DNA of 64,000 nucleotides from Salinimicrobium sp. TH3 (GTDB lineage Bacteria > Bacteroidota > Bacteroidia > Flavobacteriales > Flavobacteriaceae): contig NZ_JAPONB010000005.1 of NCBI RefSeq assembly GCF_026676115.1, positions 186,001 to 250,000 on the forward strand, read 5' to 3'. The notes under the pieces are model-generated. The model searched no databases. It was not told the DNA's origin and was given only the letters and a program-made list of their open reading frames with translations. Below are positions 29,836 to 40,026 of the stretch, one piece after another. The position numbers were made by a program, and so were the translations under genes. Within the stretch, counting starts at the first letter, position 1. Each line of letters starts with the position of its first letter.

Positions 29836-30141
29836 TTACGCTACTTGCGCATTAAATTTTGGCTTTCGTTTTTGAAGTTGTCTCCCTAATGAACTAATAC
29901 ATTCATCCACACCTACTTCAAACTTCCTACCCCTCTTCTTACAAATTACCTCATCCCCGGGAAGGCTCAATAAAATTTCAGTAAGCTTGTTCTCCTTGTC
30001 ACTGGCTTTTTCGACTTTGAGATATACATCGGCATAAATCACATTGTCAAAATGATTTTCCAGCTTGTCCAGCTTTCTCTGAATAAAATTGACTAGTTTT
30101 TGATCGGCGTGGAAATTCACGGACTGTACATTGACTTTCAT
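29836..30141 (-). CDS. hpf: Ribosome hibernation-promoting factor, short form (HPF/RaiA)
   Basis: A 101-residue protein of the YfiA/HPF domain only. MKVNVQSVNFHADQKLVNFIQRKLDKLENHF and the strand VIYADVYLKVEKASDKENKLTEILL are typical. It binds the small subunit in resting cells; this short form lacks the C-terminal dimerisation domain of long HPF. It is the last gene of an operon with rpsU and xerC, which groups two ribosome-associated factors. Confidence 0.92.
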   Translation of the reverse strand: MKVNVQSVNFHADQKLVNFIQRKLDKLENHFDNVIYADVYLKVEKASDKENKLTEILLSLPGDEVICKKRGRKFEVGVDECISSLGRQLQKRKPKFNAQVA

Positions 30142-30168
30142 AAAAATAGAAGTTTTAATTAGACAATT

Positions 30169-31095
30169 CTAAGATCCCTTCTTCTTGTTCCGTGGATGCG
30201 CATTCTGGTAGACTTTATTAAGCTCGGCCATGCTGTTATGGGTATAAACCTGAGTGGCAGCGAGACTGGAATGTCCCAGAAGTTCTTTAACAGCATTTAA
30301 ATGAGCACCCTGGTTCAATAAGTGAGTAGCAAAGGAGTGTCGCAGGATGTGCGGGCTCTTTTTTAACTTACTCGAGATACCTCTAAAGTAATTATTAATT
30401 GTTCGGTAAACAAGGGAATCATACATTTTAACGCCTGCTGCTGTTAAAAATAAATACCCCTGTGAAATGTCATTTTCCACACCTTTTCTTTCCTCAATAT
30501 AATTCTGCACTGTTGCTACAACCGAAGTTATAAGCGGAATAAACCTTTCTTTGTTACCCTTACCCCTCACCTTCAAAATTCCCGCCGTTAGATCAAGGTC
30601 CTGCAGCTTTATTCCAATTAGCTCACTGCGTCTTATCCCCGTGGAATAGAAAAGCTCTACCATCAATTTATTTCTCACCTCTTCAAAACCTTCGGCCGGG
30701 ATCTGCTGGAGGGCCTTCTCCATCTCGGTTTCAGAAAAAGGCACCTGCAGGTTTCGGGAAGTTTTTAAGGCACGATGGGTGGCTAAAGGAGATACCTCCA
30801 ACTGCCTGGTTTTTTGAAGAAAACGATAATAGGCTTTTAGAGAAGAAATCTTACGGTTGATACTGTTGTTGGATAGCCCCTGCTCCACCAGTTGCACTAT
30901 CCAGCTGCGCACCTGGGAATAATTAACCTCTTTAATATCTTTCTGGCTGTAAGTAGCAGAAATAAAATCAGAAAACGACAGGAGGTCGGCCCGGTAGGCG
31001 GTTATAGTGTGAGCCGAATTATTCTTTTCAAGCTCCAGGTACTCAAAAAAGGGGGTGTATTGATTTTGAGGCATAAAAAAACTGTTGACAAACAA
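30169..31095 (-). CDS. xerC: Tyrosine recombinase XerC-like
   Basis: A tyrosine site-specific recombinase. The N-terminal SAM-like core-binding domain (FFEYLELEKNNSAHTITAYRADL) is followed by the catalytic domain: Arg in YSTGIRRSELIGI, HILRHSFATHLL (His-x-x-Arg), LGHSSLAATQVYTH with catalytic Tyr near the end. It probably resolves chromosome dimers at dif. The internal ATG at 31074 (MPQNQYTPFF) is a better start than 31095, because the first seven residues are unlike the family. It lies between rpsU and hpf. Confidence 0.93.
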   Translation of the reverse strand: MFVNSFFMPQNQYTPFFEYLELEKNNSAHTITAYRADLLSFSDFISATYSQKDIKEVNYSQVRSWIVQLVEQGLSNNSINRKISSLKAYYRFLQKTRQLEVSPLATHRALKTSRNLQVPFSETEMEKALQQIPAEGFEEVRNKLMVELFYSTGIRRSELIGIKLQDLDLTAGILKVRGKGNKERFIPLITSVVATVQNYIEERKGVENDISQGYLFLTAAGVKMYDSLVYRTINNYFRGISSKLKKSPHILRHSFATHLLNQGAHLNAVKELLGHSSLAATQVYTHNSMAELNKVYQNAHPRNKKKGS

Positions 31096-31162
31096 AGTTA
31101 TTAAACTTTATCTATCAACAGCTATAATTGTATACCTAAGAACTCAGGCTTAGGAATTGATA

Positions 31163-31357
31163 CTAGATCTCTTCCTGATCTCTTAGATGCTGAATGTAAG
31201 CAGCTTTTTGGATTTGAGCCCTACGTTCTACTGACGGTTTTGTAAATGCTTGACGAGCTCTTAACTGACGCATTGTTCCTGTACGATCAAACTTACGCTT
31301 AAAACGCTTCAGCGCTCTATCAATATTCTCTCCGTCTTTAACTGGTATAATTAACAT
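31163..31357 (-). CDS. rpsU: 30S ribosomal protein S21
   Basis: bS21, 64 residues: MLIIPVKDGENIDRALKRFKRKFDRTG and a basic C-terminal helix (RRAQIQKAAYIQHLRDQEEI). The gene has an almost complete Shine-Dalgarno (31362-31372) with ideal spacing, unlike all other genes seen here. In Flavobacterium, bS21 takes part in sequestering the anti-SD, so this SD is a known autoregulatory device. The promoter has both elements (31396-31425). First gene of the rpsU-xerC-hpf operon. Confidence 0.97.
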   Translation of the reverse strand: MLIIPVKDGENIDRALKRFKRKFDRTGTMRQLRARQAFTKPSVERRAQIQKAAYIQHLRDQEEI

Positions 31358-31361
31358 AGTG

Positions 31362-31372
31362 TCACCTCCTTT
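31362..31372 (-). promoter_or_regulatory. Extended Shine-Dalgarno of rpsU
   Basis: On the minus strand AAAGGAGGTGA lies seven bases (counted after GGAGG plus TGACACT) before the ATG. It is complementary to the 16S rRNA 3' end (CACCTCCTTT). Other genes of the window show no comparable sequence. Confidence 0.9.
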
Positions 31373-31395
31373 CTTTAAAAATTATTTTCGAGCTG

Positions 31396-31425
31396 CAAAG
31401 ATAATCGTTAATTGCAAACTCACAA
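31396..31425 (-). promoter_or_regulatory. rpsU promoter (-33 TTG, -7 TATCTTTG)
   Basis: On the minus strand TTG (31425-31423), exactly 19 bases, then TATCTTTG (31403-31396) fit the Bacteroidota sigma-A consensus. The predicted start gives a leader of about 33 bases that contains the Shine-Dalgarno. Confidence 0.8.
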
Positions 31426-31507
31426 TTTTAATTCATTTTATTTTCTGAAATTCTGTTGCGGGTTGTGCGACTGATTTATGTTTGACTTCTCAAAATTTAA
31501 TCTATAG

Positions 31508-31535
31508 CCCAAAACCTTAAACCTGAAACCTTAAA
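31508..31535 (-). repeat. Heptamer repeat directly after acyl-CoA dehydrogenase
   Basis: On the minus strand four 7-base units (TTTAAGG, TTTCAGG, TTTAAGG, TTTTGGG) begin with the very next base after the TAG stop codon. Confidence 0.8.
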
Positions 31536-32705
31536 CTACTTGGCTGCCGGCTTGTACTCCTTGCCGTCGATAACCATTTTGGCAATGATCTCACGAAGGA
31601 TCTCCGAAGTACCACCCCCAATAGGTCCTAAGCGGCTGTCGCGAGACAATCTCGCCAAAGGATAATCTTCCATATACCCATAACCTCCAAGGAACTGCAG
31701 GCACTTGTAGATCACCTCATCGGCAATTTTTGTAGAAAGCAATTTCGACATACTGGCTTCTTTCACCACGTATACCCCACGATGCATTCTCTCGGCAATG
31801 GAATAATTAAATTCTTTTGCCATTTCCACTTCACTGGCCATCTCGGCATAAGTATGGCGCAAAGCCTGGAATTTATCTATAGTTCGGCCAAAAGCCTCTC
31901 TTTCTTTCATGTACTGCAGGGTGTAATCAAGTGCAAATTCTGCACGGGCATGAGCGTTGATACCCATGATCAACCTTTCAAAAGCAAAATGCTGCATAAT
32001 GTATGGGAAACCTTTGCCTTCTTCTCCCATTAAATTTGAGGCGGGAATCTCTACATTATCAAAGGCGATCTCTGCAGTGTCTGATGCTCTCCAACCCATT
32101 TTATCAAGCTTGGTAGCCGAGATACCCGGCGTGTCGCGGTCCATAATAAAAATGCTCATCCCTTTAGACTTTAGCTCGGGATTAGTCTTGGCCGCAACCA
32201 CCAAATAATCTGAATAGACACCGTTGGTTATAAATGTCTTTGATCCATTGATCACATATTTATCTCCTTTTTTCACTGCCGTTGTTCTCATGCCGGCAAC
32301 ATCACTCCCTCCCGCAGGTTCGGTGATACAAAGACATCCTATTTTTTCTCCGCTAATACTTGGAGTAAGGTATTTTTCCTTGATTGCTTCATCTCCCTCT
32401 TTTGCCACATGCGTCATGGCAAGGTAAGAATGAGCCCACATAGCAGCGGCAAATCCACCACTGTTGATCTTTTGCAACTCCTCCAGAAAGATTACTGTAT
32501 AGAAAATATCCAGGTCCAGCCCGCCATATTTCTCGGAATAATTAAGACCGAAATATCCCATCTCTCCAAATTTCTCCCAAATGAAACGCTCAATGGTTCC
32601 AGTTTTTTCCCATTTCTCAATATTGGGCACTACCTCTTTCTGTAAAAATTCCTGAAAGCTCTTGCGGAATAATTCGTGTTCTTCTGTAAAATATCTACTG
32701 TTCAT
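31536..32705 (-). CDS. Acyl-CoA dehydrogenase
   Basis: A 389-residue FAD enzyme that introduces a 2,3-double bond into an acyl-CoA. CLCITEPAGGSDVAGMRTTA (about 132-151), KTFITNGVYSDYLVVAAKT, ERLIMGINAHARAEFALDYTLQYMKEREAFGRTI and the C-terminal QFLGGYGYMEDYPLARLSRDSRLGPIGGGTSEI are standard family blocks. Length is normal. Chain-length preference cannot be read from the sequence. It stands alone, and its stop codon is followed directly by heptamer repeats. Confidence 0.94.
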   Translation of the reverse strand: MNSRYFTEEHELFRKSFQEFLQKEVVPNIEKWEKTGTIERFIWEKFGEMGYFGLNYSEKYGGLDLDIFYTVIFLEELQKINSGGFAAAMWAHSYLAMTHVAKEGDEAIKEKYLTPSISGEKIGCLCITEPAGGSDVAGMRTTAVKKGDKYVINGSKTFITNGVYSDYLVVAAKTNPELKSKGMSIFIMDRDTPGISATKLDKMGWRASDTAEIAFDNVEIPASNLMGEEGKGFPYIMQHFAFERLIMGINAHARAEFALDYTLQYMKEREAFGRTIDKFQALRHTYAEMASEVEMAKEFNYSIAERMHRGVYVVKEASMSKLLSTKIADEVIYKCLQFLGGYGYMEDYPLARLSRDSRLGPIGGGTSEILREIIAKMVIDGKEYKPAAK

Positions 32706-32761
32706 AAAATTATTTTCTGAATATTATATAACCCAAAATTATTTATGGGAATGAGAAAACC

Positions 32762-33640
32762 TCAGTTTTCCTGGTCGATCGTCAAATATAGTGCAATTCT
32801 GTCTAATTTTTCGAAGGGAAAATTCTTAATCTGCTGTAGTTCCTCCATGCTTTTTATCTCCCCTACCTCTTCACGATATTTAACCACGGCCCGTGCCTGC
32901 TCATAATTAAAGAATGGCAGCTCTGTGAGTTGGATAATACTCACCTCATTAAGGTTCCACTTTTCTACAGCCATTTTTGGAACTTCAAACCGCTGCAAGA
33001 CCCTTTCCACCACCTCGGGAGAAAGACCATAGACATCTTTGAGCTGTACCCCGGCCCGAAAACCTCCAAGGCTGTTACGATAGTTCACTATCCTGGCCGA
33101 AAGTTTTTCCCCAATGCCATTGACCTGCTGTAATTCTTCAGCCGTAGCCGAATTTAAATCGGCTTTGGAAAGAGGTGCCGAAAATGCCTTTTTTGACGCT
33201 CTGTTTTCTGAGAAAGTTTTTCCGCGGAAATCGGGAAACTTAAATGATGGCGAGAGGATCTTCAGCAAAGAATCTGAAATACCTGTCACCTCCTGAAATT
33301 CTTCAGCAGAATTGACCCAATGATCCTGCTCCCTATGCTCGTGAAGCCGGTCAATTTCGGCTATAGACATCCCCAGCATATACCCCTTGTAATCTGAAAT
33401 ATAGTTGGGATTAAAAGACTTTACCGAAAGTGAATCAAGTTCCACAGCATCCTGTTTCAGGGAATCTATAGTTTCCTGAAGCTGATTGGCAATTATCTCT
33501 TCTTCAGGATTGGGAGGATTTTCCGAAGAAAAAGGATAAAAGAAATATACTGCCTGCAGGATAACTATAAGAGTAACTAAAACAAAAATCCCATTTTGTT
33601 GACTTCTATCGAAAACAAAATGGGATCTCCAGTTATTCAT
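32762..33640 (-). CDS. ComEA-like helix-hairpin-helix protein
   Basis: A 292-residue protein with one N-terminal membrane helix (NGIFVLVTLIVILQAVYFFYPF, about residues 16-37) and three HhH-type motifs outside: EFQEVTGISDSLLKILSPSF (about 112-131), DLNSATAEELQQVNGIGEKLSARIVNYR (about 160-187) and INQLTELPFFNYEQARAVVKYRE near the C terminus. The plan resembles ComEA, the DNA receptor of natural transformation; in Bacteroidota such proteins are common and their function is unproven. It is 15 bases downstream of the symporter gene. Confidence 0.82.
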   Translation of the reverse strand: MNNWRSHFVFDRSQQNGIFVLVTLIVILQAVYFFYPFSSENPPNPEEEIIANQLQETIDSLKQDAVELDSLSVKSFNPNYISDYKGYMLGMSIAEIDRLHEHREQDHWVNSAEEFQEVTGISDSLLKILSPSFKFPDFRGKTFSENRASKKAFSAPLSKADLNSATAEELQQVNGIGEKLSARIVNYRNSLGGFRAGVQLKDVYGLSPEVVERVLQRFEVPKMAVEKWNLNEVSIIQLTELPFFNYEQARAVVKYREEVGEIKSMEELQQIKNFPFEKLDRIALYLTIDQEN

Positions 33641-33655
33641 GTATGTTAGTTCGGC

Positions 33656-35743
33656 CTAAGAAGCTTTTTTCACCCGCTCCTTTGAAGGATTGTGAAAAAG
33701 CTCACCGGCTTTTAATTTTCGAGAGTATTCTTTCAGATCTCTTCTCACCTCACCCGACATTATGTAAAGACCTATAATGTTAGGGAAGGACATGGCCAGG
33801 ATCATCATATCCGAAAAGTCCAGAACTGCTCCAAGACTCACGGAAGCTCCAACTACAACAAACACAAGGAAAAGCGCTTTGTACAGTAGCTCCATATTTT
33901 TGCTTTTCCCAAATAAGTAAGTCCAGGCTCTCATTCCATAGTAAGACCAGGAAATCATGGTAGAGAAGGCGAAAAGAAATACTGCAGCCGCAAGCACGTA
34001 AGGGAACCATGAAATCACACTACCAAAGGCCGTAGAGGTAAGTTCTACCCCTCCTACTCCTTCAACTTCATGCATTCCGGTAAAAATAAGTACAAGGGCA
34101 GTAAGGGTACAAACCACCACGGTATCAATGAATGGTTCAAGAAGCGCCACAAAACCTTCAGACGGCGGATGGTGGGTCTTGGCCGCTGAGTGAGCAATAG
34201 CCGCCGATCCAACTCCGGCCTCATTCGAGAATGCCGCTCTTTGGAAACCTACAATTAAAACTCCAATTACACCACCTTTTAAAGCACTGGGGCTAAATGC
34301 ACCATCCCAGATGGCTGCAAATGCAGGTCCAATATTTTCAATGTTTACTCCAATTACCACTAAAGCTCCAAGGATATATATTGCAGCCATAATAGGAACT
34401 ACCTTTCCTGTTACTTTGGCAATACTACTTATCCCTCCAATAATTACAATCCCTACAAGGATAGCAACAACTACCCCAAAAAGAAATCCATTTCCTACAA
34501 GCGCAGGAAACTCCCCTGCAAGAATGACAAAAGACTGGTTCGCCTGGAACATGTTCCCACCTCCAAACGAGGCTCCAATCGCAAGTATAGCAAAGAAAAC
34601 TGCCAGGAATTTACCAAAACCGCCCATGTTTCTCTTTTCGAGACCGTAACGAAGATAATTCATAGGACCTCCAAAAACACGACCTTCCGAGTTAATAAAG
34701 CGATATTTTACTCCCAGGGTACATTCCACAAATTTTGAAGACATTCCCAGTAGACCTGCAAGGATCATCCACATTGTTGCCCCGGCTCCACCTAAAGAAA
34801 TAGCTACTGCAACCCCGGCAATATTACCAAGTCCAACTGTACCCGAAACTGCCGTAGCCAACGCCTGAAAGTGCGTTACCTGCCCCGGCGCATTTGGATC
34901 ATCATATTTTCCTTTTGCAAGATCAAGAGCGTGTTTAAATCCTCTAATATTAATAAAGCCCATCCTTATTGTAAAGAATAATGCTCCGAGAACCAGCCAT
35001 ATTACGATAAAAGGAATATCTTTTTGCTGCAGGTCTCCGTTAGGATGCAGCAATGGCACGGGCTGGTCATATCTTATTGCAGCAAGGTAATGAGCCCCTT
35101 GTTCTATGACATGCTCTACATTTTCTGAATTATAAATTACCCCACCCTCTTTCACTAAATATTCTAGGGTTCCGGTTGCATTCGCATAAGCCTGGGTTTC
35201 TTCCTCTCCATCCTGAAGCACAATAGCAATTGGCTCCCCTTCTTCAACACGCTCGCCTTCGGCTTTAAGCCATTCCTTAAGAACGAATCGACCCTCGGCA
35301 CGAGCTTCCCAGTTTGGTGCTGCCACTCTTTTAATATCGGCATAGACAACCGGGTCGTAAATTCCAATTGCCGAAAATGGATCCCAGAACAAAACGCTCC
35401 CCATGCTTGCCACAATTGGCGCAAAGGTTCCATTGAAATGCTCGGTAATAGCTTCTGCAGGCACTTTGACTGTTTTGGTGACAGAGTTGTTTGCTGCATC
35501 GGTAATCGTCACCGTATATTCTACCCCTTCTACAAGGGCTCCCGCCCTGGAAGCATCCAAAGGTGTTTGCTGGTTGGACCATTTATATTGATAAGGAGGT
35601 GTTCCCCCACGCACATCCAGCTCTACAAAACCGTCATTGATCACCTTTGACGGGTTTTCAATCTGGACATCAACCTCTAATTCCTGAGCATAGGAAGACA
35701 AAAAGAAAACAGAAAAAAATAATGAAAGTATGGACTTTCTCAT
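33656..35743 (-). CDS. Alanine/glycine:cation symporter (AGCS) with N-terminal Ig-like and biotinyl/lipoyl-like domains
   Basis: A sodium-coupled amino-acid symporter of unusual build (695 residues; simple AGCS proteins have about 450-550). Signal peptide to residue 20 (SSYAQ); residues 22-95 form an SprB/PKD-like Ig domain (GGTPPYQYKWSN at 47-57, EYTVTITDAANNSVTKTVKV); 102-130 may be the first transporter helix (FAPIVASMGSVLFWDPF); 150-217 look like a barrel-sandwich hybrid (LKEWLKAEGERVEEGEPIAIVLQ ... NATGTLEYLVKEGGVI). The AGCS core follows from about 243: GTVGLGNIAGVAVAI, GGPMNYL and QRAAFSNEAGVGSAAIAHS. At the position of the modified lysine the barrel has none. The core fits transport of Ala/Gly with Na+. 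Confidence 0.9.
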   Translation of the reverse strand: MRKSILSLFFSVFFLSSYAQELEVDVQIENPSKVINDGFVELDVRGGTPPYQYKWSNQQTPLDASRAGALVEGVEYTVTITDAANNSVTKTVKVPAEAITEHFNGTFAPIVASMGSVLFWDPFSAIGIYDPVVYADIKRVAAPNWEARAEGRFVLKEWLKAEGERVEEGEPIAIVLQDGEEETQAYANATGTLEYLVKEGGVIYNSENVEHVIEQGAHYLAAIRYDQPVPLLHPNGDLQQKDIPFIVIWLVLGALFFTIRMGFINIRGFKHALDLAKGKYDDPNAPGQVTHFQALATAVSGTVGLGNIAGVAVAISLGGAGATMWMILAGLLGMSSKFVECTLGVKYRFINSEGRVFGGPMNYLRYGLEKRNMGGFGKFLAVFFAILAIGASFGGGNMFQANQSFVILAGEFPALVGNGFLFGVVVAILVGIVIIGGISSIAKVTGKVVPIMAAIYILGALVVIGVNIENIGPAFAAIWDGAFSPSALKGGVIGVLIVGFQRAAFSNEAGVGSAAIAHSAAKTHHPPSEGFVALLEPFIDTVVVCTLTALVLIFTGMHEVEGVGGVELTSTAFGSVISWFPYVLAAAVFLFAFSTMISWSYYGMRAWTYLFGKSKNMELLYKALFLVFVVVGASVSLGAVLDFSDMMILAMSFPNIIGLYIMSGEVRRDLKEYSRKLKAGELFHNPSKERVKKAS

Positions 35744-35878
35744 ATAAGAATTTTAAAATAATATTAAATGGAATTTTCGGCGAAGCAAGATGCTAAAAAT
35801 ATTAACGTTTTCAAATTTTCTGAAGTTAAATTGCAAACGAAACGTTAATCCATGAGAGATAATATGACAGGATCTTTT

Positions 35879-36109
35879 TTATAGATCAAAAACAGAAGTC
35901 CTCTTAGAATAGATCATGTCTTTGAATTTCAGGAGAAAGGCAAGTGTGAGATAAATGGCAAAACCAATCCCAAAGGTTGCAAATGAGAGGTAGATAAAGA
36001 AAAGCCGGACATTTTTTGCTCTCATTCCCAGCTTATCGGCAAAGCGTGAGGAAACATAGAACCCATGTCTCTCAAAAAAGTTTCTTATCTGGTTTACCCA
36101 TTGCTGCAT
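35879..36109 (-). CDS. PspC domain-containing protein
   Basis: A 76-residue protein with the PspC pattern: a short amphipathic start, then FADKLGMRAKNVRLFFIYLSFATFGIGFAIYLTLAFLLKF with one or two membrane helices. PspC domains occur in envelope-stress sensors; here only the domain exists. The ATG is separated by four bases from a TATCTTTG -7 box, so the mRNA is probably leaderless. It is 12 bases downstream of the DUF2851 gene. Confidence 0.82.
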   Translation of the reverse strand: MQQWVNQIRNFFERHGFYVSSRFADKLGMRAKNVRLFFIYLSFATFGIGFAIYLTLAFLLKFKDMIYSKRTSVFDL

Positions 36110-36113
36110 AAAG

Positions 36114-36121
36114 CAAAGATA
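36114..36121 (-). promoter_or_regulatory. -7 box directly before the PspC gene
   Basis: TATCTTTG on the minus strand ends four bases before the ATG (CTTT between them). Transcription from it would start at or next to the start codon. It overlaps the end of the DUF2851 gene region; a clear -33 TTG is not visible. Confidence 0.4.
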
Positions 36122-37441
36122 TTAAATTTGGACTTGCGGTTGAAGTATCTTTAAACCTACTGCACAATTCAAACAGGCTTTTTTATCGCAGTATTCCTTT
36201 TTTAATTGCAACAAAGCTTGCGACTCTAAAGCACCAGTGGGAATAGAAGGTCTTAAGGAATGGAATTTTTTAATGACCTCGTTCTGCTCTGCATCTACTG
36301 CCTCAATTAATGGTGCTATCTTTTCAAAAGCATCTTTCCCCTTACTTCTTAAATAGGCAAATTTTACGGGGACTACAGTGTTAATGATAAGGAGATCCAG
36401 AAATTTCCTGCTCATTTTCTTCTTCCTTGGAGAATGACTGCTGGAAAAAGTATAGTGTGTACTCCAGAACTCATCCAACCTTACCTCAAACAGATCATAC
36501 ACCTGCTGTGGATCCTCCCATTTAAGAAGTTTCGAAAACAATGCAGGATGTTCACTATAAACTACTGCCAATTGTACTAACCTAAGTTCTGGAAAATTAT
36601 CGGGTCTTAGCCGAAAATACTTTACGGGCATTACTCCGGTATTGGACAAATTAAATTTATGCTTTAAATAAACGTATACCTCCCTTAACCGTAAAAAATG
36701 TTGATCCTCGCAATTCCCGTTTAGGATACCCGCCTGCCCCAGCAATAGTGCCTCCATATGGACCTTATTTGCTCGAACTTTCCTTACAATCGAAAATGGA
36801 ATGGAGGCTGCTATACTAAGAAAAGCTTCTCCATTGATATTTAGCCCGAAACTTTTTGCCAGCATTTGGAAAAGCACTGCTTCCCAATCCCCGGCCATTT
36901 TGATTAAAAGCCCTTCTATAAGGGAAGATCTTTTTTCAAGCCTTTCCACATAAAGTCTTTCCAGCCAGTTATTCATTAAAAAATCATCTATGACAGGAAA
37001 ATCCTGTTCACAGTTGATCCATCTGGAAGAGCCCTCGGTACAAAGGTTTTGATAACTGTTAAGACTTTCCCGGGAAACAAGTTGCTGTACCTCCATAACG
37101 GGAAGCGGGGAATTATCTTTTCGGAAAATTTCCACATCATGTATCCACACCACATGTAGAATTACATTATCATAGGCCGGGTCGGTCTCATGTCCATGCA
37201 TGTACCAATCGGAGGAACGGAGGTGAATCTCCACATTACCTGCCCATTCCTGGTTACCAATGAGCAGCCGGGAATTAAAGAAATCGGGGCCGGAAAATTC
37301 ATTATGCCGACCGGGCGAAATAACCCTAACTGCATTCCCATCCACAGTTTTCATCTCCTGAAGATCGAATTTTTGAAACTGCCATAGGTAATGTAAATAA
37401 TCCTCCCGCATCAAATAAAAGTATGGAATTTTTCCATACAC
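36122..37441 (-). CDS. DUF2851 family protein
   Basis: A Bacteroidota-specific family without known function. The conserved start MREDYLHYLWQFQKFD lies at codon 11, so the real start is probably the ATG at 37411, giving 429 residues. GRHNEFSGPDFFNSRLLIGNQEWAGNVEIHLRSSDWYMHGHETDPAYDNVILHVVW (from about residue 48) is the diagnostic block, with Asp/His residues like those of nucleases. The C-terminal part has a Cys cluster (CDKKACLNCAVG), which may bind a metal. Cytoplasmic. Confidence 0.9.
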   Translation of the reverse strand: MYGKIPYFYLMREDYLHYLWQFQKFDLQEMKTVDGNAVRVISPGRHNEFSGPDFFNSRLLIGNQEWAGNVEIHLRSSDWYMHGHETDPAYDNVILHVVWIHDVEIFRKDNSPLPVMEVQQLVSRESLNSYQNLCTEGSSRWINCEQDFPVIDDFLMNNWLERLYVERLEKRSSLIEGLLIKMAGDWEAVLFQMLAKSFGLNINGEAFLSIAASIPFSIVRKVRANKVHMEALLLGQAGILNGNCEDQHFLRLREVYVYLKHKFNLSNTGVMPVKYFRLRPDNFPELRLVQLAVVYSEHPALFSKLLKWEDPQQVYDLFEVRLDEFWSTHYTFSSSHSPRKKKMSRKFLDLLIINTVVPVKFAYLRSKGKDAFEKIAPLIEAVDAEQNEVIKKFHSLRPSIPTGALESQALLQLKKEYCDKKACLNCAVGLKILQPQVQI

Positions 37442-37489
37442 CTCTAAGAATCAGTTAAATAAAATGCAGGAGAAGCCTTACAAATACTG

Positions 37490-38191
37490 TTATTTTTTTA
37501 TAGCGACTTTTTGCCTTACTTCTTCATAAAAATGATCTACCCACTGGCGATACATTTCCCCACTTGGATGCAGGTCATCTTCTGCAATAAGCTCAGGCTC
37601 ATTGGCGGCCTTGCGTGAAATTGGAGTAATATCATAAAAATCCACATTGAATTCTGAAGCTACTTCTTCAAAAATCCTGTTGAATTCATCAAGTTCCTTT
37701 CCAATTTCCTCAGCTCTTTCCTCTCCGAAAGGAGTAACTCCATAATCGGGGATACTTACAGCAAAAACTCCCTCTGCTCCACTTTGGGAATGTGAAATCG
37801 CTCTTTCGAAGATCTCGTAAAGATCATCACGATAAGCTTCTATAGACTTTCCCTGGTATTGATTATTAACCCCTATTGAAACAGAGACAAGATCAAATTT
37901 CTCATTGTTGAGTTGAGCCTCCATGGCGCTTAGCAGATCCTGCGTGGTCCAGCCCGTTGTGGCAATTATTCTGGGATCTTCAATGTCAAGACCTTCTTTT
38001 TGTAGTCTTTCCACGAGTTGCACCGGCCATCTCATCTCTACCCCGACACTTTCTCCAATGGTATACGAATCGCCCAAAGCAAGATATCCTAGTGCATCTT
38101 CCTGGACGACAGTAACATTTTCAGATTCATTTTCTTTACAGCCTGTAAGCAGGACAATTAAGCACAATGGTAACAGATAAGTAAATTTCAT
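37490..38191 (-). CDS. SGNH/GDSL hydrolase lipoprotein
   Basis: A 233-residue lipoprotein (lipobox ending at Cys18, LLTGCKE). The SGNH blocks are visible: GDSYTIGE with nucleophile Ser42, Gly/Asn in SVSIGVNNQYQG, and the C-terminal DDLHPSGEMYRQW with the catalytic Asp and His. It is probably a periplasmic or surface esterase/lipase acting on lipids or acetylated glycans; the substrate is unknown. Confidence 0.9.
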   Translation of the reverse strand: MKFTYLLPLCLIVLLTGCKENESENVTVVQEDALGYLALGDSYTIGESVGVEMRWPVQLVERLQKEGLDIEDPRIIATTGWTTQDLLSAMEAQLNNEKFDLVSVSIGVNNQYQGKSIEAYRDDLYEIFERAISHSQSGAEGVFAVSIPDYGVTPFGEERAEEIGKELDEFNRIFEEVASEFNVDFYDITPISRKAANEPELIAEDDLHPSGEMYRQWVDHFYEEVRQKVAIKK

Positions 38192-38413
38192 AGGATCAGT
38201 TTTTTTGAATCTACTAAAATATATTTTTCTCCCGCAGCACCACCACTCCTCCCCTAAAATTTATAAACTCAGCCACATATTGAAACCCCGGGAAATAAAA
38301 TTGTGTGGTCCCGTGTCTTTTGTGCAGATAAAGATTCTTAATTCCCGGTTAAACCGGCTGCTGTCCCAAGAAGTTTCCGGTAAAAATTTTATCTTATTCA
38401 AAAATCATTAGAT

Positions 38414-38593
38414 ATGAAGCCAGAGCAGCCTGAGCCCGGCGGGCAGAATCCGGAAAAATATAAAAATACCTCCCCTTCCAAAAATGAGAGTAAATTCATG
38501 AGCGGACTTAAAAAAGTGGGATTCAACGTTTGGTTAGCGGTAATGATCATTGGCGGGGCCCTGGCATTTATTACAGCTCTTTTTCTGATATGA
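38414..38593 (+). CDS. 59-residue single-span membrane protein (AtpZ/AtpI-like)
   Basis: A short gene: an ATG at 38414 opens 59 codons ending in TGA. The first 28 residues are hydrophilic and Pro/Asn/Lys-rich (MKPEQPEPGGQNPEKYKN...), followed by a hydrophobic helix (VWLAVMIIGGALAFITALFLI). The size and layout recall AtpZ/AtpI-type or similar mini-proteins, but there is no firm match. Its stop overlaps the start of the next gene (ATGA), which supports that both are real and co-translated. Confidence 0.65.
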   Translation: MKPEQPEPGGQNPEKYKNTSPSKNESKFMSGLKKVGFNVWLAVMIIGGALAFITALFLI

Positions 38594-38967
38594 GAAATAT
38601 TTATCTGCTGTTTTTTATTTGCTTTGGAATTTTCCTTGGAAATTTAATCGTACTTAATCTTCCTTTACAACTGCCCACCTTCTTCTCCTCCTATCTTAAC
38701 GACCTGCTGTGCATGCCTATAGTTTTGAGTGTTTGTCTTTTCGTGATCCGAAAGATCAGCAAAAGGAAAGATCTAAAAATTTCACTTTTTTCTGCTTTTT
38801 CTCTCGCGGCACTTTATTCTATTTACTTTGAATGGTACCTTCCTGAAATTACAACAAGATATACTCAGGATGTGGTCGATGTACTGCTGTACTTCGGCGG
38901 AGCCTTAATTTTCTGGCTGATCCAGAGATCTGAAGCATCATCACAAAAGCTTCAGTATGAGAAATAA
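38590..38967 (+). CDS. Four-span membrane protein of unknown function
   Basis: A 125-residue integral membrane protein starting at the ATG that overlaps the preceding stop by four bases (ATGA). The frame is open further upstream, but that part is the wrong frame of the preceding gene. Hydrophobic helices lie at about residues 3-20, 35-55, 64-82 and 100-116; the loops are short and basic, with RKISKRKDLK between helices 2 and 3. A VanZ-like or AtpI-like role cannot be shown. A terminator overlaps the stop codon. Confidence 0.7.
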   Translation: MRNIYLLFFICFGIFLGNLIVLNLPLQLPTFFSSYLNDLLCMPIVLSVCLFVIRKISKRKDLKISLFSAFSLAALYSIYFEWYLPEITTRYTQDVVDVLLYFGGALIFWLIQRSEASSQKLQYEK

Positions 38968-38996
38968 AAAAAGCTGTCTAAAAAAGACAGCTCTTT
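38967..38996. terminator. Bidirectional terminator between convergent genes
   Basis: The stem AGCTGTCT / AGACAGCT with an AAAAA loop lies immediately after the stop of the membrane-protein gene, with A residues left and CTTT right. It serves the plus-strand pair and possibly also the cysteine synthase gene. Confidence 0.75.
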
Positions 38997-39045
38997 ACTA
39001 TTTTATTTTACCAGGTACTGGTTCCTGAATATTGTCTCCCGGTTC

Positions 39046-40026
39046 TTACTCTATATATCCCATTTTTCGCATCCAGTCATCATTGAACATTTTCCCTACA
39101 TAACGGCTGCCGTGATCGTGGAATAAAATTACTACTACATCATCCTTTTTGAAATGCTCTTTTAGCTGAAGTAAACCCTTGATCGCAGCTCCTGCACTAT
39201 TCCCAAGGAACATTCCTTCTTCCTTAGCAAGTCTTTGGGTGTAGATAGCGGCATCTTTATCAGTCACTTTTGTAAAGCCATCAATAATATCAAAGTCAAC
39301 ATTCTTAGGCAAAATATCTTCTCCAATCCCTTCTGTCACATAAGGATATATCTCCTTCTCATCAAACTCTCCGGTTTCGTGGTACTTTTTAAAAACTGAG
39401 CCATAAGTATCCACACCCCAGATTTTCACATTTGGATTCTGCTCCTTCAGGTATTTTCCAACCCCCGAGATGGTACCGCCCGTTCCCACTCCAACAACAA
39501 AATGAGTAACTTTACCATCGGTTTGTCTCCAAATTTCAGGCCCTGTACTCTCATAATGAGCTTTGGTATTCGAAAGATTGTCATATTGGTTGACATACCA
39601 GGAATTTGGTGTTTCTTCAGAAAGACGTTTGGAGGTAGAATAGTAAGACTGAGGATCATCTGGTGCCACATCGGTGGGACAAACGACTACCTCACTGCCT
39701 ACGGCACGTAAAATGTCAATTTTTTCCTTGGATTGCTTATCGGCCATGACACAAATCATCTTATAACCTTTTACAATAGCAGCAAGAGCAAGACCCATTC
39801 CCGTATTTCCTGAAGTCCCTTCAATAATAGTTCCTCCCGGCTTTAAAAGTCCGGCAGCTTCGGCATCTTCGATCATTTTCACTGCCATCCGGTCCTTAAC
39901 CGAGTTGCCCGGATTAAAAGTCTCATATTTTGCCAGCACCAGTGCATCTATACCTTCTGTCAATTTATTCATCTTGACGAGAGGCGTATTTCCAATAGTA
40001 CCTAATATATTTTCAGCGTATTCCAT
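39046..40026 (-). CDS. PLP-dependent cysteine synthase / cystathionine beta-synthase-like enzyme
   Basis: A fold-type II PLP enzyme, 326 residues. The PLP lysine lies in NSVKDR (Lys44), the substrate loop is TSGNTG (71-76), and the phosphate loop GTGGTISGVG is near residue 178. Two features point to the cystathionine beta-synthase branch rather than plain O-acetylserine sulfhydrylase: the MADKQSKEKIDILRAVGSEVVVCPTDVAPDDPQSYY stretch and the C-terminal FHDHGSRYVGKMFNDDWM. There is no heme domain and no CBS regulatory domain. It acts in the cytoplasm in sulfur amino-acid metabolism. A -7 box precedes it. Confidence 0.88.
   Translation of the reverse strand: MEYAENILGTIGNTPLVKMNKLTEGIDALVLAKYETFNPGNSVKDRMAVKMIEDAEAAGLLKPGGTIIEGTSGNTGMGLALAAIVKGYKMICVMADKQSKEKIDILRAVGSEVVVCPTDVAPDDPQSYYSTSKRLSEETPNSWYVNQYDNLSNTKAHYESTGPEIWRQTDGKVTHFVVGVGTGGTISGVGKYLKEQNPNVKIWGVDTYGSVFKKYHETGEFDEKEIYPYVTEGIGEDILPKNVDFDIIDGFTKVTDKDAAIYTQRLAKEEGMFLGNSAGAAIKGLLQLKEHFKKDDVVVILFHDHGSRYVGKMFNDDWMRKMGYIE

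Follow-up and report, generated by a model that had tools for sequence, protein, structure and literature searches.

Why should a sodium-coupled amino-acid symporter carry a soluble head in front of its membrane part? The general view of LeuT-fold symporters is of carriers that work alone, and a gene of Salinimicrobium sp. TH3 raises this question. It lies at 33656-35743 on the minus strand of the window, i.e., the whole stretch of 64,000 nucleotides that was analysed, and encodes, in 695 aa from its ATG, an AGCS symporter behind a signal peptide, an SprB/Ig-like domain and a barrel-sandwich-hybrid (BSH) domain. The symporter core (residues 244-681; 33701-35014, minus strand) had been recognized in the original prediction, and its AGCS membership is borne out by both PF01235 (residues 284-681, E 5.1e-121, 405.1 bits against a Pfam cut-off of 24) and TIGR00835 (residues 246-673, 386 bits against a cut-off of 272.65). 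Its nearest PDB sequence is the sodium/alanine symporter AgcS (6cse/6csf), with 6cse matched by phmmer over residues 244-675 at E 5.7e-90 and by VIA-align at Z 16.4 over 338 residues (6.3 A). Going by its family, the window core is expected to take up small neutral amino acids together with Na+, like AgcS. The likeness is confined to the core: 6cse has merely 16 residues ahead of the matched part, with room for neither an Ig nor a BSH domain, and the canonical paralogue in the same genome (L159) passes from a short segment ending FVWG at once into its first membrane helix (EFASFVWGLPLLILLTGG), again with no room for either. A glycine riboswitch is described as controlling a sodium:alanine symporter gene in a streptococcus in an excerpt of PMC5829553. 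A riboswitch at the window gene is unsupported: in an Rfam search of positions 30000-40000 that admitted E values of up to 1, the two matches lay far under their gathering scores.

The N terminus of the protein points to export. Residues 1-19 (35687-35743, minus strand) form a predicted signal peptide, MRKSILSLFFSVFFLSSYA, followed by Gln20 at +1. This is the pattern of the Bacteroidetes Q-rule, by which Gln stands directly behind the type I signal-peptide cleavage site of exported proteins, as stated in an excerpt of PMC10653852. Gln occupies the +1 column in 78 of the 81 aligned proteins (P0001 and L031-L110, some of them incomplete), and the other three have NAQ closing their leader, as judged by eye. 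By this sequence pattern the window protein is a candidate Q-rule-type exported protein, with cleavage and export predicted.

Behind the signal peptide, residues 20-95 (35459-35686, minus strand) form the SprB/Ig-like domain. PF13573 (SprB) scores 26.2 bits in the window protein, under its gathering score of 28, and is detected at E <= 0.1 in 43 of 43 scanned members (best 2.9e-9). The likeness to the SprB-repeat proteins of Bacteroidota consists of this Pfam match and a GGTPPYxYxW motif. AlphaFold2 of residues 19-242 yields a beta-sandwich at about residues 23-93, with ten-residue blocks at pLDDT 70-88, and the Ig-type rows in VIA-align reach Z 7.7-7.9 only, a level classed as common arrangement. 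The Ig domain anticipated at residues 22-95 was accordingly recovered, at 20-95, by the profile in members and by the modelled sandwich. SprB itself is a large repeat adhesin, whereas the window protein is an inner-membrane transporter with a single such domain. In two genomes, both from one further family of the order, a different N-terminal segment stands in the place of SprB (L021:1489-3405 and L026:1489-3306), with no Pfam match.

The second added domain (residues ~137-228; 35060-35335, minus strand; about 133-230 with its flanking strands) is modelled as a BSH fold of the lipoyl-like type. When the ectodomain, residues 19-242, was predicted alone from 61 sequences (mean pLDDT 79.2), the blocks of this domain reached pLDDT 77-94. 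In VIA-align the top 35 rows have Z 8.0-9.5, and biotin or lipoyl enzymes account for 33 of these rows, including two integrative models; the rows cover residues 129-242 at their widest and mostly about 133-230 in full-length numbering. Foldseek returned only two matches at E < 0.001, both biotin-dependent carboxylases. PF00364 (Biotin_lipoyl) gives 16.1 bits in the window protein (19.5 in the genome search), under its gathering score of 22.1, and matches 42 of the 43 scanned members at E <= 0.1 (best 1.6e-7). A lipoyl-like barrel had been expected at residues 150-217; the fold holds up, with Z 8-9.5 to biotinyl and lipoyl domains, and the extent had to be widened to about 133-230. Both the BSH and the Ig-type sandwich were modelled at fair to high confidence. 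The window domain shares its fold and profile matches with the E2 lipoyl domains of 2-oxoacid dehydrogenases and with biotin carboxyl carrier domains, but differs from them in being attached to a transporter, in a Gly instead of the lysine, in an additional loop with a short helix at about 205-216 and in a hairpin longer by one residue.

The BSH domain had been placed between the first and second transporter helices, which proved incorrect: it is N-terminal to the first membrane helix, residues 244-261. It is preceded by a conserved pre-membrane segment (residues 96-136, FWDPFSAIGIYDPVVYAD, containing FWDP; 35336-35458, minus strand), probably a short helix and one hairpin strand, which is positioned like the L159 segment ending FVWG. 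The stretch 99-118 is a helix in the full model at pLDDT ~45 and is not helical in the ectodomain model, where residues 98-124 have pLDDT <50, and this helix is therefore unproven. On the other side, a return segment with the link to the first membrane helix (residues 229-243, VPLLHPNGDLQQKDI; 35015-35059, minus strand) is common to insert-less relatives. The same core with a short turn, SprB and no BSH insert is present in L152-L154, L156-L158 and L027 of the same family and in L017 and L028 of other families of the order. In L153, one of these SprB-only relatives, the insert region reads FWDPFAALGLYDPVVYDDAGEPLKHPNGDDVTIAIPFIVIWL, and in the window protein it reads FWDPFSAIGIYDPVVYAD, ~92 residues and then VPLLHPNGDLQQKDIPFIVIWL. 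At the junction, YDPVVYDDAGEPLKHPNGD of L153 faces YDPVVYAD, the insert and VPLLHPNGD, and thus the BSH domain stands where L153 has a few turn-like residues. From this alignment it seems to replace a short turn ahead of the first membrane helix, where L153 may form a hairpin. AGCS genes of other families of the order (L024:1495-1914, L025:316-735, L029:1174-1593) have a different segment of ~70 residues with a GTxF...G..I.I..G..Y.I pattern ahead of the first membrane helix, for which Pfam gave no match at E up to 1.

The first helix of a LeuT-type core starts in the cytoplasm, and since one membrane helix (244-261) precedes it here, the residues before 244 should be periplasmic. This topology agrees with the signal peptide, the Q-rule pattern and the acidic character of the ectodomain (36 D/E against 16 K/R in residues 20-243). 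In the AlphaFold2 model of the whole chain, made from a homogeneous alignment (mean column identity 80%), mean pLDDT is 53.3 and the transporter part is poor, with much of the core <50; the packing of the head on the core is therefore not visible in it.

A lipoyl-like domain on a transporter brings up the question of whether it carries a cofactor. Alignment to E2 lipoyl domains and the offset from the conserved Ala173 set Gly179 (codon 35207-35209, minus strand) at the place of the lipoyl lysine, so that the hairpin-tip lysine of a functional lipoyl or biotinyl carrier is missing from the window gene, in addition to its PF00364 score below the gathering score for a carrier domain. Lysine occurs at the equivalent offset in 16 of the 81 aligned proteins, 12 of them as D-K, and the residue is otherwise G, N, D, S, T, R, E or P (the pairs are DG, NG, SN, DK, DR and others). 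The earlier statement that no lysine stands at the modification position is thus right for the window gene and wrong for part of the family. Lipoylation of the window protein was rejected on account of Gly179. Judging from the alignment, this site is not conserved as a modification site across the family, and because the lysine is absent and its position unconserved, we regard the window BSH as no cofactor carrier. The lysines of the D-K relatives, together with the likely derivation from an E2 lipoyl domain, could be taken to mean that these members are lipoylated or biotinylated and carry a periplasmic redox or acyl arm on the transporter. We consider this extremely improbable: Gly occupies the site in the window gene, a wide range of residues is seen there in the family, the D-K-A triplet that is usual in lipoyl domains is missing from all of the listed D-K members, and the signal peptide would imply export away from the cytoplasmic ligases.

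As for the origin of the domain, a profile built from 12 sequences of the insert region (A2) gave weak matches in 47 genomes of a phylum sample beyond the 8 with full-length matches (55/395 in total). The 22 weak-match places that were retrieved (L119-L140) all score again in a second profile scoring, and 21 of them match within profile positions 27-123, the lipoyl-like part, the exception being L129 with a match to the membrane-helix junction. L119, the sole one of the 22 checked with Pfam in this respect, is the E2 of a 2-oxoacid dehydrogenase and contains a pair of lipoyl stretches. In the genome of the window gene, where 10 lipoyl or biotin loci (9 different ORFs) were retrieved, the highest profile score fell on an ORF of 560 aa that has two lipoyl domains (L164/L165). 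Because these matches to E2-type lipoyl domains are weak but consistent, an E2 lipoyl domain appears the likeliest source of the BSH insert.

A scan of genome contigs yielded 426 coding relatives, some bearing the insert and others lacking it. The best 80 of the 426 each match nearly all of the 167-residue query and, judged by their names, belong to Flavobacteriaceae, except for Cytophaga sp. FL35, which falls with Flavobacteriaceae in the tree. These 80 loci contain 81 ORFs with at least ~300 core residues, 77 of which are flagged for both domains; the other four are L106, which has the insert and missed the strict SprB motif, and three cut pieces (L037 and the upstream second copies in L045 and L099). 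Full-length matches occur in 8 of 395 genomes of the phylum sample, all of them Flavobacteriaceae. Matches of at least 150 bits, counted as full-length, are present in 63 of 397 genomes of the Flavobacteriaceae sample, with two copies in 13. The architecture deserves to be called unusual, as it had been, for AGCS as a whole; within Flavobacteriaceae, it is recurrent. Some copies deviate. Five genomes retrieved for their second copies (L144-L148) have a second insert-bearing AGCS gene 4.7-5.8 kb upstream, with a more diverged insert in the upstream copy and with DUF2851 and a GDSL gene and/or a u145-like gene between the copies. In L010 of the same genus and L037 (Salinimicrobium catena), which may be the same species, the gene is broken by an in-frame stop near codon 372. 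The frame ends early at about residue 617 in L041 (Gramella sp. KN1008), where similarity resumes in another frame, and at about residue 565 in L052 (Gramella jeungdoensis), where it resumes in the same frame, each being a pseudogene or a sequencing error.

In a tree of 74 cores, from which L003-L011, two in three of L031-L110 and any identical or incomplete cores were omitted, a branch with support 96/89 separates all 54 SprB+BSH proteins from the other rows, and no insert-less protein of the 74 rows falls inside this clade. Its nearest rows are the SprB-only proteins L152-L154 (joint group 98/69; the three alone 86/26), and the deep part of the tree is unsure owing to the long branches of L030 and L029. 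With the SprB+BSH proteins united in one clade of these 74 rows, a single gain of the design is the simplest reading, and losses may have occurred outside the sample. That the insertion was near-neutral, i.e., that a lipoyl domain came to lie in a turn that tolerates it and was retained as a folded spacer without a specific role, sits poorly with a clade in which the insert was never found missing. It also has to account for the nine positions of residues 133-230 that are invariant in 77/77 proteins, including Trp158, Val166, Ala173, Gly191, Gly200, Gly216, Ala217 and Tyr225. In its favour, the BSH is the least conserved folded part (mean pairwise identity 55%, compared with 60% for the Ig domain, 76% for residues 96-132 and 86% for the core, in 77 proteins with 4 incomplete ones left out), it evolves faster than the core, it is strongly altered in some second copies (L149, L151), and the same stretch holds a different segment in L024, L025 and L029. 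On balance we consider a role-less spacer quite unlikely. The best-kept residues in or beside the BSH include Tyr134, Trp145, Tyr225, His233, Asn235 and Gly236, and the loop EGxVIYNSENxxHVIEQGA is well conserved among these proteins; the hairpin that bears the lysine in true lipoyl domains is a variable part of the insert.

Comparison of the cores of 43 insert-bearing rows (11 of the second-copy type left out) with 19 insert-less ones (L030 left out) revealed only four separating positions, 320, 366, 404 and 527. Two of them are outer and two inner by the inferred topology, so no excess on the periplasmic face was shown, and a clustering of core substitutions on the outer face was not upheld. 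Residue 320 (codon 34784-34786, minus strand), in an outer loop by the inferred topology, belongs to a GGPGA motif, GG(P/A)GA in the alignment. Of 54 insert-bearing cores, 53 have Ala there and one has Ser; of the 20 others, 19 have Pro and the insert-less L030 has Ala. The association of the Pro320 to Ala change with the insert is suggestive at the level of the alignment, and it may be one change on one branch. We also considered that a sodium symporter took up an enzyme's swinging-arm lipoyl domain on one occasion, that this domain ceased to serve as a cofactor carrier and that it would now act as a periplasmic gate or cap controlling transport, compensated by the change of GGPGA to GGAGA at 320, and regard this as a doubtful reading that is improbable in its full form.

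The neighbourhood of the gene is shared as well. Counted over 80 loci (the best 80 of 426) in flanks of up to 4 kb, the upstream DUF2851 gene (36122-37441, minus strand; Pfam) has a match in 76 of 80, the downstream helix-hairpin-helix (HHH) gene (32762-33640, minus strand; Pfam HHH_3) likewise in 76, and an acyl-CoA dehydrogenase gene (31536-32705, minus strand; Pfam) in 74. The HHH protein of the window has a hydrophobic N-terminal stretch. The HHH gene is absent from L012, and in several distant relatives the HHH matches are just 23-34% identical and partly cover the repeat motif alone. It also lies 3' of AGCS genes with neither added domain (L018, L019, L020, L022, L023) and of eight of the nine SprB-only relatives (L017, L027, L028, L152, L154, L156, L157, L158), the ninth, L153, having no detected neighbour. 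A functional link to HHH as the reason for the ectodomain was rejected because the HHH gene also adjoins AGCS genes that lack it. None of the DUF2851, HHH and acyl-CoA dehydrogenase neighbours was found at L153 and at the second-copy or stand-alone loci L141-L143 and L149-L151.

The same neighbours bear on whether the head is a docking adaptor, in which SprB/Ig and BSH would bind a periplasmic or outer-membrane partner, e.g., a peptidase or a TonB-dependent peptide importer, that passes released amino acids to the symporter. BSH domains of efflux adaptors have a docking role, and one such adaptor, BesA, supplies the remaining two VIA-align rows among the top 35 (4kku Z 8.2, 4kkt Z 8.1); moreover, related genomes contain large ORFs in which SprB-like segments are found again, as weak matches to about query residues 16-126, many of them in frames of 900-3500 aa. 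But the recurrent neighbours include no obvious periplasmic peptidase or outer-membrane importer, they flank insert-less relatives too, and the BSH hairpin tip is variable. We consider this adaptor unlikely, though still deserving of attention, and it overlaps the docking half of the proposal we favour. The sensor- or adaptor-like role that the original prediction gave to the added domains is conjectural.

We propose, with about even confidence for and against, that the head acts mechanically, as a rigid and non-catalytic cap or docking module on the periplasmic side of its symporter. An ordinary Na+-coupled symporter of the alanine/glycine type would have gained its periplasmic head in steps, first with an SprB/Ig domain added behind a cleaved signal peptide and later with a domain of E2-lipoyl lineage inserted, probably once, in the short turn just ahead of the first membrane helix. 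The BSH would sit at the periplasmic mouth, packed against the conserved membrane-proximal segments, and the head would tune access to, or the stability of, the outward-facing state, or hold the transporter beside a periplasmic partner. This proposal is supported by the domain and fold evidence, the E2 profile matches, the Q-rule signal peptide, the acidic ectodomain, the junction and the one clade, and further by the conserved pre-membrane segment (76%) and BSH loop and by the Pro320 to Ala change that tracks the insert. Against it count the poor core model, the low pLDDT of residues 98-124, the four core differences without an outer excess and the possibility that the change at 320 happened on a single branch, with Ala also in L030. 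The faster evolution of the insert and the altered second copies L149 and L151 likewise weigh against a cap or docking module, as they would also fit a weakly constrained spacer.

Among the listed open-access full texts in PMC, as far as their titles and the openings of their abstracts tell, this architecture was not found described, and it may still have been published. The domain architecture is real and conserved, probably of single origin, unusual for AGCS and recurrent in Flavobacteriaceae. In many flavobacteria a LeuT-fold symporter is maintained whose additional head, probably in the periplasm, contains a lipoyl-like domain that has no conserved lysine. The relatives in the same gene neighbourhood that lack the head offer a natural before-and-after series on the insertion of a soluble domain beside a first membrane helix and its effect on a sodium symporter. 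The design suggests that an E2 lipoyl domain was re-used outside its enzyme and, as we infer, outside the cytoplasm.
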